Assembly: GCA_003220685.1 (NCBI GenBank)
Contig: QHTE01000055.1
Span: forward strand, 224,759 to 288,758
DNA from: Candidatus Rokuibacteriota bacterium
GTDB lineage: Bacteria > Methylomirabilota > Methylomirabilia > Rokubacteriales > CSP1-6
Direction: 5' to 3'
DNA length: 64,000 bases
In this document: positions 30,521 to 54,864 of the stretch, one piece after another
Numbering within the stretch: the stretch's first letter is position 1
Layout: every line of letters starts with the position of its first letter
Program-made: the position numbers and the translations under genes
The notes under the pieces: generated by a model
Databases searched by the model: none
What the model was told of the DNA's origin: nothing
What the model saw: the letters and a program-made list of their open reading frames with translations, nothing else

Positions 30521-31075
30521 TCAGGGCGTCGAGGGCGTGGCCAGGACGGCCTCGATAAACTGGCGTCCCTTCTGGCTATCCCACTGTCGCGGGCCCGCCG
30601 CCCGCCCGACCAGCCGGCCCTGGCGGTCGACGATGTACACGGTCGGCGGACCCCAGACGCCATACGCCTTGCCGGTCACGTCGCCGCTCTCGTCGAGCAG
30701 CACCGGCGCGATGTAGCCGCGCTCCTTGACGGTCTGCCGGACCCTGTCGGGATCCTCTCTGAAGTCGATCAGAAGGACTTCAAGGCCCTTACCGCGGTAA
30801 TCCCGATAGACCTTCTGGACGGGAGGCAACTCCTCCCGGCAGGTGGTTCACCACGTGGCCCAGAAGAAGAGCATCACGACTTTGCCGCGTAGATCGGCGA
30901 GGCTGACCGTCTTGCCGGCGAGATCCGGCAGCGAGAAGGCCGGTGCCGCCTTCGGCGGCGTGTACGGCTGTATCTGCACGCTGGCGAAGTCCGGCCGAGC
31001 GGCCGCCCTGGGCGCGATCGTCGCCGACCCGACCAGCGCCGCGGTGAGGACTGCGACGGGCACTAGTGATCTCAT
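30521..31075 (-). CDS. TlpA/thioredoxin-like protein, probable selenoprotein (UGA at the first active-site Cys)
   Basis: The frame runs from ATG 31073-31075 (an ATG six codons earlier is also in frame) with signal peptide [20 protein letters not shown], then [20 protein letters not shown] and MLFFWATW. It meets a single UGA at 30848-30850 and continues in the same frame as [39 protein letters not shown], ending at 30521. Every piece of a TlpA/AhpC-TSA redoxin is there. The UGA falls exactly on the first Cys of W-C-x-x-C, giving W-U-T-T-C (Sec76, Cys79). A stem-loop begins 9 bases after the UGA. Best reading: an exported selenocysteine thioredoxin of about 184 aa. The alternative is a nonsense mutation or sequencing error. 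No sel genes are in this window. Confidence 0.8.
30815..30842 (-). promoter_or_regulatory. Bacterial SECIS-like hairpin just downstream of the in-frame UGA
   Basis: In mRNA sense a perfect 7-bp stem CGGGAGG/CCUCCCG (30820-30838 on the + strand) encloses the loop AGUUG. Below it a mismatch, a G-C pair and a bulge lead to two more pairs (CU/AG). The loop starts 17 nt after the UGA and has G at its second position. This satisfies the published bacterial SECIS rules of spacing (16-37 nt) and a G in the first two loop bases. The stem is entirely within codons TGC-CGG-GAG-GAG-TTG-CCT-CCC-GTC-CAG. Confidence 0.65.
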
Positions 31076-31108
31076 GAGCGCAGGGTACCGCATGACGCCA
31101 GCCCCGAG

Positions 31109-33457
31109 CTATCTCCGCCGCAAAGCCCGCATGACGCGCTCCGGGGTGATCGGCTGGTCGGTGAGCATCACGCCGAGCGGCGCCAGCGCGTCGTTGACCG
31201 CGTTGACAATCGCGGCGGGCGCGCCCGTCGCCCCCGCCTCGCCCGCACCCTTGAAGCCGCCGACCAGTCCCGGGGCGGGTGTCTCGATGTGGTGCATCTC
31301 GATCGGCGGCAGGTCGGCGCTGGTCGGCACGGCGTAGTCCATCAACGTCGTCGTGAGCAGCTGCCCGGCGTCGTCGTAGACGCAGTGCTCCAGCAGCGCG
31401 CCGCCGAGCCCCTGGGCGATTCCGCCGGCGATCTGGCCCTCGACGAGCGCGGGATTGACGATGCGCCCGCAATCGTCGACGGCGACGTATCGCAGGACAC
31501 GCACGCGGCCGGTGTCGGCGTCGACCTCGACGACCGCGAGGTGGGCACCGTTCGTGAAGGTCCACGCCGCGGGATTCGTGTAGTGCACGGTCGCCTCGAG
31601 GCTCGGCTCGACGCCTCGGAGCTCGTTCGACCGGAAGTGCGCGGCGCGGGCGAGCTCGGCGTAGCTCAGGCCCCGTTCCGGGCTCCCGCGGACCGCCGCG
31701 CGGCCGCCGCCGAGCTCGATGTCGGCGGCGTGCGTCTCCAGGAGCGCAGCCGCGATCGTCCGGATCCGTTCTCCGAGCGCCCGGGCGGCCAGCAGGGTCG
31801 CGCTGCCGCCGATCGGCATGCCGCGGCTCGCCCAGGCGCCTCCGCCGTACGGCACCACGGCGGTGTCGCCCGACCGCACGGCGACCTCGTCGAGCGGGAC
31901 GTCGAGCACGTCGGCGATGATCTGCGCAAGCGCGGTGTGAGTTCCCTGGCCCTGCTCGGTGACGCCCACGAGCGCGGTGACCGCGCCGCCGGGCTCGAGG
32001 CGCACGGTCGTTCCGTCCTGGCCCGAGATCGGCGCGCCGCCGACGCCGTAGAACTGCGCTCCCGGACCGGTGAGCTCGACGAAGCACGCGAGCCCGATGC
32101 CCACGTGGCGTCCCGCGGCGCGCGCCGCCGCCTGCTCGCGCCGCAGCCGGTCGTATCCGGCAGCCTCCACCAGACGCGCCAGCGCGGCCTGATAGCTGCC
32201 GCTGTCGAAGACGTTGCCCGCCGCCGAGGTGTAGGGAAGATCCTCGGGCCGCACCAGATTGCGGCGCCGCGTCTCCGCGGAATCGAGTCCGAGATCGCGC
32301 GCGACGAGATCGATCATGCTCTCGGTCACCGCGGTGGCGATCGGATGACCCACGGCGCGGTACTGCGACGTGACCACTTTGTTCTGCGCGACGACGCGCA
32401 GGGTGGCGTCGTAGTTCCGCACGCGATAGGGCCCCGGGAGCAGCCGGAGCACCTGACCGCCTTCGACGACGCTCGAGCGCGGATACGCGGAGTAGGGCCC
32501 GACCGCAGCCGTGATGCTCGCCCGCATCGCGGTCAGGACGCCGTCGCGGTCGGCCGCGACCTCGACGCGGATCGTCTGCTCGCGCGCGTGGATGTCCGAC
32601 AGGAACGATTCGCGGCGACCCGCGACGAACTTGACGGGCCGACCCAGCGTCAACGCGAGCGCGCACGCCGCCATGTCGTCCTGGTAGACGTGAATCTTGA
32701 TGCCGAAGCTGCCGCCGACGTCAGGGGCCACGACACGGACGCGCGGCTCGGCGAGCCCGAAGAGCTCGGCGACCACGGCCTGCATCATGTGCGGGACCTG
32801 CGTCGAGATCCACAAGGTGAGCGCGCGGGTCGCGGGCTCATAGTCGGCGACCAGGCTTCGCGGCTCGAGCGGCACGCCGGTGTGGCGACCCGTCGTGAAC
32901 GTGCGCGCCCACACGCGGCCGGCGCCGGCGAAGGCGCGCTCGACGTCGCCGGCCGAGAGGCGCGTCTCGTAGAGGACGTTGTCGCCGAGCTCGGGATGGA
33001 TCAGGGGCGCGCCGGCGGCCAGCGCCGTCTCCGGTGCCAGCACCGCGGGCAGCGGCTCGTACTCGACCTCGACCAGCGCCGCCGCGTCGTCGGCCGCCGC
33101 CCGGCTCTCGGCGGCGACCGCGACGATCGGCTCGCCGACGTAGCGCACGCGATCGACGGCGAGCGGGAGCATCGCGCCTGTCTTCATGCCCCGGTAATGG
33201 AGGAGGACGCCGCGATAGGGCTTGCAGAGCCGGGCGACGGCCTCGCCCGTCAGCACGCCGGCGACACCGGGCGCTCGGCGCGCGCGATCGACATCGAGCC
33301 GGACGAGGCGCGCGTGGGCGTGGACGCTGCGGACGAACGCGGCGTGAACCATGCGCGGCAACGTCACGTCGTCGACATAGCGGCCGCGCCCCGTCAGCAA
33401 ACGGGGGTCGTCGCCGCGTTTGACGCGCGCTCCGATTCGGCCCGCCGGCGCCGACAC
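31109..33457 (-). CDS. Xanthine dehydrogenase family, molybdopterin-binding large subunit (orphan)
   Basis: 782 aa from a GTG. Architecture: N-terminal Ald_Xan_dh domain (MVHAAFVRSVHAHARLVRLD; AGVLTGEAV; YVGEPIVAVAAESRAAADDA) then the Mo-binding domain (VVAPDVGGSFGIKIHVYQDD; VTEQGQGTHTALAQIIADVL; VGGFKGAGEAGATGAPAAIV, the last with the catalytic Glu in the GAGE motif). The position of the CO-dehydrogenase active-site loop (VAYRCSFR) reads TSQYRAVGHP, so this is not a CO dehydrogenase. It belongs to the CoxL-like form II group with unknown organic substrates. No FAD- or 2Fe-2S-subunit genes are adjacent, so they must be encoded elsewhere. Confidence 0.9.
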   Translation of the reverse strand: MSAPAGRIGARVKRGDDPRLLTGRGRYVDDVTLPRMVHAAFVRSVHAHARLVRLDVDRARRAPGVAGVLTGEAVARLCKPYRGVLLHYRGMKTGAMLPLAVDRVRYVGEPIVAVAAESRAAADDAAALVEVEYEPLPAVLAPETALAAGAPLIHPELGDNVLYETRLSAGDVERAFAGAGRVWARTFTTGRHTGVPLEPRSLVADYEPATRALTLWISTQVPHMMQAVVAELFGLAEPRVRVVAPDVGGSFGIKIHVYQDDMAACALALTLGRPVKFVAGRRESFLSDIHAREQTIRVEVAADRDGVLTAMRASITAAVGPYSAYPRSSVVEGGQVLRLLPGPYRVRNYDATLRVVAQNKVVTSQYRAVGHPIATAVTESMIDLVARDLGLDSAETRRRNLVRPEDLPYTSAAGNVFDSGSYQAALARLVEAAGYDRLRREQAAARAAGRHVGIGLACFVELTGPGAQFYGVGGAPISGQDGTTVRLEPGGAVTALVGVTEQGQGTHTALAQIIADVLDVPLDEVAVRSGDTAVVPYGGGAWASRGMPIGGSATLLAARALGERIRTIAAALLETHAADIELGGGRAAVRGSPERGLSYAELARAAHFRSNELRGVEPSLEATVHYTNPAAWTFTNGAHLAVVEVDADTGRVRVLRYVAVDDCGRIVNPALVEGQIAGGIAQGLGGALLEHCVYDDAGQLLTTTLMDYAVPTSADLPPIEMHHIETPAPGLVGGFKGAGEAGATGAPAAIVNAVNDALAPLGVMLTDQPITPERVMRALRRR

Positions 33458-53410: not shown

Positions 53411-54864
53411 AAGGAGCTCCCTTTCGTCGCGGCCAGATAGTCGCTCTTGGCCCGCTCGAGCTCGGCGATCAGCGCCTGACGCTCCGTCGTCAAGCGACGG
53501 GCCGCGTGCTCGCGGGTCAGCGCGAGGGCGCCGAAGCGCAAACGGCTCCGGAGCCGCCCGGCGCCGACCCAGTAGCGATACGCGATCACGCCGGAGAGCG
53601 GCAGGGTGAGCAAAAATACGAGCGCGCCGGCGGGGCCGACCAGCCGCGCGACGAGCCAGGTCTCGAGCGCCCAGAAGAGCGGAATCGCGAGCATCGCGGT
53701 GAGGAACCGCCACGTCGCGTAGTCGGTCTCCTTGCGCGACATGTGGCGCGCCACCCAGCGCGGGATCCAGTAGGGGAGAAAGTTCACGGTCGCGCCGTAC
53801 ACGAAGAACGGAAAACCGACGATCGCCTGCCAGCCGCGGCGGATCCGCTGGCGGGGCCGCCGCCGCTCGAGCCGCGCGCGCACCGCCTCGTCCTTCACGC
53901 GATATTCGGCCAGGAGCGCCCGGTAGCTCTGGATGCTCTGCCCGATGCGCTCGACCCGCTCGGGGTCACGCTGCTTGAAGTAATTGGTCGAGTCCACGAT
54001 CGCCCGCGACAGGCGGACCAGGTCGATCTGCCGCTCGGCGAGGCCGCGCTCCTCGCGGAGCTCGCGCACCAGCTCGTCGCGGTAGAGCTCCTGGACGGCG
54101 TTCACGAGCCGGCTCTCGTCGATGCGCTCGACGTGGACCACCTCGGCCTCGATGCCCCACTGGATCGCGTCGGTGAGGGCCTCGACCGCTTTGACCGGAT
54201 CTCTCCGGTACGCCTCGAGGTAGGGCGTGACCGGAATGACCGGGCCGAAGGAGAGGAGGACGCGGCCGCGGAAGGACTTCCGCGCGTCGAAGTTGAGCCC
54301 GACCGGGATCACACGCAAGGGGCCCGGACGCTCGGCCTCGTAGCCGAGCGCCAGCCGCGCGGCGCCGGTCTTGATCCGCTGAACGCGCACCTCGGCATGC
54401 GTCGTGCCCTCCGGGTAGATGGCGACGAGCCGGCCCTCGGCGAAGGCCTTGAAGCACGCCTCGAAGGTGCCCGCATTTTTCTCCGCCGTTGTAGCGGGTG
54501 CCGTGAGCCCGGCTCCAGCCGAGGGTGGCCTGCCATAGGAGCTTGGCTCGTCTTGCTTGCGATAGACGGGGATCGCGCCGCACGCGAGGAGGAAGCGCGC
54601 GACGAGGCGATTCTTGAACAGGGCGGCCGTCGCCAGGTAGTGGACCTTGCGCGGAATCGCGGCGCCCACGAGCAGCGAGTCGATGAAGTTGTTGGGATGG
54701 TTGATGCAGAGGAGCACCGGCCCGTCGGCCGGCACGCGCTCCGGGTGCCGGATGTCGACCGAGCGAAAGAAGAACCAGAGCCAGAACCGCCCGACGGCGC
54801 GCACGGCGCGGTAGAAGCCGTCCATGCTATCGGGCCGCGCGCCGGTGTCGACGGTCGCGCTCAC
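53407..54864 (-). CDS. 1-acyl-glycerol-3-phosphate acyltransferase-like (PlsC family)
   Basis: 485 aa. GTG 54862-54864 overlaps the PrpF stop (GTGA); an ATG at 54825 is the next choice. Acyltransferase motifs: LLCINHPNNFIDSLLVGAAI (His-Asp catalytic block, in the NHxNxxxD variant), GAIPVYRKQDEPSS, and VAIYPEGTTHAEVRVQRIKT (EGT block). Two to three membrane helices near the C-terminus (ALETWLVARLVGPAGALVFL and GVIAYRYWV region) and a helical basic end. Acylates lysophosphatidate or a related acceptor. The long C-terminal half (about 250 aa) is more than in E. coli PlsC and typical for high-GC bacterial paralogues. Confidence 0.85.
   Translation of the reverse strand: MSATVDTGARPDSMDGFYRAVRAVGRFWLWFFFRSVDIRHPERVPADGPVLLCINHPNNFIDSLLVGAAIPRKVHYLATAALFKNRLVARFLLACGAIPVYRKQDEPSSYGRPPSAGAGLTAPATTAEKNAGTFEACFKAFAEGRLVAIYPEGTTHAEVRVQRIKTGAARLALGYEAERPGPLRVIPVGLNFDARKSFRGRVLLSFGPVIPVTPYLEAYRRDPVKAVEALTDAIQWGIEAEVVHVERIDESRLVNAVQELYRDELVRELREERGLAERQIDLVRLSRAIVDSTNYFKQRDPERVERIGQSIQSYRALLAEYRVKDEAVRARLERRRPRQRIRRGWQAIVGFPFFVYGATVNFLPYWIPRWVARHMSRKETDYATWRFLTAMLAIPLFWALETWLVARLVGPAGALVFLLTLPLSGVIAYRYWVGAGRLRSRLRFGALALTREHAARRLTTERQALIAELERAKSDYLAATKGSSF

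Follow-up and report, generated by a model that had tools for sequence, protein, structure and literature searches.

In a stretch of 64,000 nucleotides from a Candidatus Rokuibacteriota bacterium (hereafter the window), a thioredoxin-like gene carries an in-frame TGA at the place of its first catalytic cysteine. Is this codon a stop, the trace of a decayed or misread gene, or is it decoded as selenocysteine (Sec)? A preliminary description of the locus had called the gene a probable new selenoprotein. Here we examined the codon, the frame around it, the RNA that follows it and the machinery of the host, and we found it very likely, judging from these sequence features, that the stop codon is read as Sec at the active site, both in the window gene and in its relatives across the phylum.

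A thioredoxin-fold gene with UGA at the active site

The gene lies on the minus strand at 30521..31093. Translated from 31093 to 30521 with TGA as Sec (U), it gives 190 residues followed by a terminator, itself TGA (30521..30523, from the frame translation). The first in-frame ATG is at 31093; the second, at 31075, is the start used in the preliminary description and is retained as an alternative. The sole internal TGA is codon 82 (30848..30850, minus strand), in the motif W-U-T-T-C, where it replaces the first Cys of the WCxxC of ResA/TlpA-type proteins. It was thus correctly described as the only interruption of the frame and as falling exactly on that Cys.

With Cys put at codon 82, the protein matched AhpC-TSA at 94.7 bits (cut-off 26) and Redoxin at 78.9 bits (cut-off 26.6). 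Its best NCBIfam matches were ResA (96.8 bits) and TlpA (81.4 bits), and each of the 13 NCBIfam models listed gave a score under its curated cut-off; for the ResA subfamily proper (NF002854) that cut-off is 170, so the protein falls outside the subfamily as curated. The closest solved structures were 3kcm, a thioredoxin family protein, and the ResA structure 4nmu. Together, these domain and structure matches place the TGA on the first active-site Cys. In a 27-row alignment the invariant positions were C82 (the Sec position, written as C), C85 and P150, and the protein therefore combines the AhpC-TSA/Redoxin domain, the WCxxC position and the later conserved Pro by which TlpA/ResA-like proteins are recognized. 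The gene product is accordingly predicted to be a thioredoxin-fold protein of the ResA/TlpA-like kind. Its translated sequence begins with a hydrophobic stretch (31013..31069, minus strand, limits approximate) that was taken by eye for a signal peptide, and hydrophobic residues are likewise abundant, on a reading by eye, in the N-termini covered by the alignment. These N-termini are probably those of an exported TlpA-type protein, and the putative periplasmic location proposed in the preliminary description draws on this hydrophobic stretch.

The UGA codon and the frame beyond it are conserved across the phylum

We searched 95 genomes of this phylum (Methylomirabilota) at E <= 1e-40 and obtained 57 homologues, 42-99% identical, from 51 genomes. 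All 57 were checked codon by codon. TGA occupied the Sec position in 55 of them, from 49 genomes, and a Cys codon (TGT/TGC) in the other two (L109 and L116); TAA or TAG stood at this position in none of the 57. This is the pattern by which bacterial selenoproteins are recognized: the UGA is in frame, conserved, and placed where a redox-active Cys would be. Where the 55 TGA homologues are aligned, no further in-frame stops were present except in L048 (+106) and L096 (+107), near the C-terminal end, which we read as terminators. Homologues with TGA at the same codon and free of random stops elsewhere, as the selenoprotein proposal had called for, are therefore the rule in this phylum.

The next in-frame stop of these 55 homologues was TGA in 35, TAG in 13 and TAA in six, and one frame runs off its contig. 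As 35 of the 55, the window gene among them, terminate with TGA, a global reassignment of this codon does not seem likely. For eight same-genus orthologues, the Ka/Ks after the TGA was 0.09-0.17 in 28 of 28 pairs, and before it 0.04-0.22 in the same pairs. The low values after the TGA indicate that the C-terminal part is translated and useful.

Copies 75-88% identical to the window gene were also present on seven contigs of Candidatus Rokuibacteriota metagenome-assembled genomes (MAGs), which are not independent of the same-genus genomes in the phylum set. A search of plasmid proteins gave only matches below 60% identity among the matches listed (5 of 1,300 records). TGA also stands at this Cys position, as UGWC and URWC, in two near-identical Chloroflexota homologues (L035 and L036) that share 37% identity with the window protein.

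A hairpin at a fixed distance from the UGA

The window gene has a bSECIS-type hairpin at 30820..30838 on the minus strand. Going 3' from the UGA, 9 nt are followed by a 7-bp stem (CGGGAGG/CCTCCCG), an AGUUG loop (AGTTG in the DNA) that begins 16 nt past the UGA, and the closing strand. Passages of a 2026 review (PMC13188914) describe the bSECIS model as a loop of 3-9 nt whose first two positions include G, a stem of 4-16 bp, a spacing of 16-37 nt and an energy of <= -7.5 kcal/mol. The window gene, with a stem of 7, the loop AGUUG, a spacing of 16 and -12.4 kcal/mol, fits this model, and 53 of the 55 TGA loci satisfied all constraints, energy included; L082 (-6.9) and L094 (-7.4) missed the energy threshold.

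Because the model by itself is permissive, with 1,140 of 6,569 off-site windows of these genes also passing, we tested for the hairpin at its exact position. A stem of 6-7 bp with an AGUU(G/A) loop starting 16 nt past the UGA was present at 55 of 55 TGA loci, and a stem of at least 6 bp arose at that place in 50 of 11,000 synonymous resamplings of these loci. Among other in-frame windows of the TGA genes, a 6-7 bp stem occurred in 29 of 6,569. With the window gene taken by itself, 6 bp was reached in 158 of 20,000 synonymous resamplings. Counting against the hairpin, 24 of 200 dinucleotide shuffles of that of the window gene alone folded as well (z -1.2). At 52 of 55 loci the hairpin was part of the minimum-energy fold calculated for the 45 nt past the UGA, a different structure being favoured at L082, L091 and L112.

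The stem has also been maintained while its sequence changed. Among 53 distinct sequences, pairs 1-6 were standard in all and pair 7 in 41, counts that are not independent events, related sequences sharing ancestry. Pair 3 occurred as A-U and G-C, pair 4 as G-C, G-U and A-U, and pair 6 as G-C, C-G and A-U; the both-sided changes at these three pairs are compensatory. Furthermore, the Leu codon in the loop was TTG or TTA at 55 of 55 TGA loci, compared with 43 of the 1,125 other Leu codons of these genes. The search for the same downstream hairpin in homologues, suggested at the outset, was thus answered at every TGA locus.

A probable natural exchange of Sec for Cys

A maximum-likelihood tree was built from 92 rows (66 Sec, 26 Cys) and 148 columns, six loci, among them the peroxiredoxin-like L129, having been left out beforehand; many of its forks are unresolved. 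It contains a group of 60 Sec rows and one Cys row with support of 99/99. The two Cys matches of the phylum search, L109 and L116, fall outside the group containing the 55 TGA matches. The Cys row in the group of 60 Sec rows, L056 (G006 C117:4378-4902), branches at a 100/99 fork with five other rows, all of which have TGA, in a group of six members. L056 has TGT at the Sec position, CTG rather than TTG for the loop Leu and CGG rather than AGG for an Arg, both changes being synonymous, and its stem at the hairpin place is 3 bp as against 6. Its hairpin is broken by these synonymous changes, probably in a reversion from Sec to Cys whose direction is read from the tree; this is a single case, and the estimated contamination of the source genome is 9%.

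Five other Cys relatives (L055, L070, L109, L116 and L123) had stems of 1-2 bp at the hairpin place. The presence of the hairpin in the TGA forms and its absence from the six Cys forms checked match what is predicted of a recoding element. The TGA/Cys exchange that the preliminary description had hoped to see among homologues is thus found in L056, a Cys form lying inside the Sec clade, and it represents a natural exchange in which the recoding hairpin was lost along with the Sec codon.

The selenocysteine machinery

The genome of the window (6.09 Mb, 137 contigs, 87.6% complete) contains a tRNA-Sec with anticodon tca (69.8 bits, above the Rfam cut-off), and near it, close together on contig C73, selA (588 bits) and selB (363 bits). 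A selD (335 bits; L018, G000 C19:189837-190781) has one in-frame TGA inside and is probably itself a selenoprotein as well. The genome therefore holds selA, selB, selC and selD, the set by which a bacterial selenoprotein host is recognized and which the preliminary description had proposed looking for.

Across the phylum, selA was found in 83 of 95 genomes. It was equally common with the TGA form (43 of 49 genomes) and without it (40 of 46, made up of 44 genomes with no match at E <= 1e-40 and two with a Cys match only), and we therefore set aside the co-occurrence of the gene with selA as non-discriminating. Both selA and tRNA-Sec were missing from six of the 49 assemblies with the TGA form, and tRNA-Sec alone from four more, in a phylum search for tRNA-Sec that used stricter filters. 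One genome with the TGA form and neither selA nor tRNA-Sec, G087, is rated 100% complete, which counts against Sec decoding. In many of the genomes selA and tRNA-Sec lie on one contig, whose loss may explain their joint absence.

Neighbours, paralogues and a possible redox partner

Upstream of the gene on the same strand, 15 nt before the ATG at 31093, lies a gene at 31109..33457 that we take to be xanthine/CO-dehydrogenase large-subunit-like (CoxL-like). It has this position at seven of the eight same-genus loci, all but L046, and was not found at the other phylum loci of the search (flanks of about 0.6-1.5 kb). We sought a functional partner by synteny and, with this neighbour found only at these seven loci within the flanks covered, claim no link; it also has no obvious redox link. 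Elsewhere in the window, a TGA-interrupted frame at 54311 on the minus strand (APCV-U-SRSG) passed the hairpin filter among 137 frames and is probably a chance occurrence.

The window's genome has four DsbD_TM matches. One of them stands beside a Sec-TlpA paralogue (L052, G000 contig C22, 228-1986), where the DsbD_TM gene at 228-1091 is upstream of the paralogue (UPDC) at 1435-1986 on the same strand. This arrangement suggests that such proteins get electrons via a CcdA/DsbD-type carrier.

Within its own genome the window protein had 17 matches, nine of them with one in-frame TGA before the terminator, and this genome thus has at least nine TGA-containing thioredoxin-fold genes. A hairpin fitting the permissive bSECIS model followed in all nine. 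In seven of the nine the TGA coincides with the aligned catalytic Cys column, and in the peroxiredoxin-like L118 and L122 it is 3-4 residues off; that of L122 presumably corresponds to a peroxidatic Cys, going by its motif. Against the WAxxUGC family, which it resembles, the paralogue L117 scored 221.7 bits (cut-off 300). Besides the window gene and the paralogue at L052, this genome has six thioredoxin-fold genes, L117-L122, each with one internal TGA at or near the redox-active Cys, WAxxUGC-like and PrxQ-like forms included.

Alternative readings of the codon

A lone stop in an otherwise open frame can come about when a sense codon turns into TGA by mutation or is misread as such, and the relatives that bear a name come from metagenome assemblies. 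A pseudogene or sequencing error would nevertheless have to recur at this codon in 49 genomes (55 of 57 homologues) and leave Ka/Ks at 0.09-0.17 past the TGA, and we regard it as extremely improbable. A suppressor tRNA or a code change that inserts some other amino acid is just as improbable. This idea has its opening in the clear in-frame passage of the TGA, with the inserted residue being a prediction from sequence; however, 35 of the 55 TGA homologues, including the window gene, terminate with TGA, and all 26 non-TGA rows of the tree have Cys at the position (the aligned column reads GAC in the left-out L129). The genome also has tRNA-Sec and the sel genes, and the hairpin agrees with the bSECIS model.

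Slightly more credible, although still very unlikely, is a regulated truncation in which translation mostly ends at the UGA and the full-length protein is a minor or selenium-dependent product. Termination at UGA competes with Sec insertion in known systems. Here, however, the N-terminal product would end before the second active-site Cys and lack most of the domain, and the C-terminal part is under purifying selection.

We therefore prefer Sec insertion, and give a probability of about 0.96 to the proposal that SelB-dependent insertion yields a probably exported UxxC thiol-disulfide oxidoreductase in which Sec replaces the first catalytic Cys (U-T-T-C). The codon position, the conserved frame, the hairpin and the machinery genes were seen directly in the sequence. 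SelA makes Sec on its tRNA from selenophosphate, which SelD supplies. SelB carrying Sec-tRNA-Sec would bind the mRNA hairpin 16 nt past the UGA, and the UGA would then be decoded as Sec instead of stop. The Sec protein would subsequently be exported, would probably swap electrons with client disulfides, and may be re-reduced by a CcdA/DsbD-type membrane protein.

More speculatively, and with the odds somewhat against it, a Methylomirabilota-wide lineage of exported TlpA-like proteins might be almost obligately Sec-dependent, within an expanded extracytoplasmic selenothiol system that has several Sec paralogues per cell, some of them coupled to CcdA/DsbD-type reductases. On this idea the SECIS hairpin would constrain the residues flanking the active site (Glu/Lys with Pro/Ser), so that RNA structure would shape the enzyme.

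Relation to known selenoproteins

We take the domain entry cd02966 to be TlpA-like. Table 1 of PMC13188914 lists UxxC selenoproteins that include thiol-disulfide isomerase-like (cd02966), Prx-like (PF00578) and redoxin (PF08534) proteins, and a Sargasso Sea set described in part of PMC1088965, the first source of the cd02966 entry, has a thiol-disulfide isomerase-like UXXC family. The thiol-disulfide isomerase-like selenoprotein, as entered in that table, shares with the window protein the TlpA-like domain class and a UxxC with Sec first; the two are likened by description, and the window lineage is Methylomirabilota. The entries for Prx-like thiol:disulfide oxidoreductase (PF00578) and Redoxin family protein (PF08534) have the same Pfam domains and UxxC motif class, a likeness at the level of domain and motif to what are broad families. 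NF041054 (ResA-like WAxxUGC motif-containing protein) is also ResA-like and has U in the motif of its name; however, against this model of 354 positions the window protein scored 62.9 bits, under the curated cut-off of 300 for WAxxUGC_long membership, and its motif is W-U-T-T-C rather than WAxxUGC. The Cys forms ResA, TlpA and DsbE share its domain and WCxxC position, but have Cys where the window protein has Sec.

Among the matches listed in a literature search on Rokubacteria with selenoprotein, selenocysteine and selenium, which covered few subscription journals, no title or abstract opening dealt with this gene family, and a text-term check of PMC12013277 and PMC5029168 gave no mention of Rokubacteria, Methylomirabilota, TlpA or thiol. 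Of the phrase "probable new selenoprotein", the selenoprotein part is upheld by codon, hairpin and machinery; the kind is not new, UxxC TlpA/Prx-like selenoproteins being already published in that table of PMC13188914. The window gene family is thus a correct and well supported new example of a published kind.

Routine annotation is expected to split or truncate TGA genes of this sort. The family provides a clean computational case of Sec decoding within a phylum whose members are mostly uncultured, here in a soil bacterium. One Methylomirabilota MAG is predicted to have 63 selenoprotein genes, according to a passage of PMC13188914 citing Deng et al. 2026, and the window gene family adds to the signs that the selenoproteomes of this phylum are very large.
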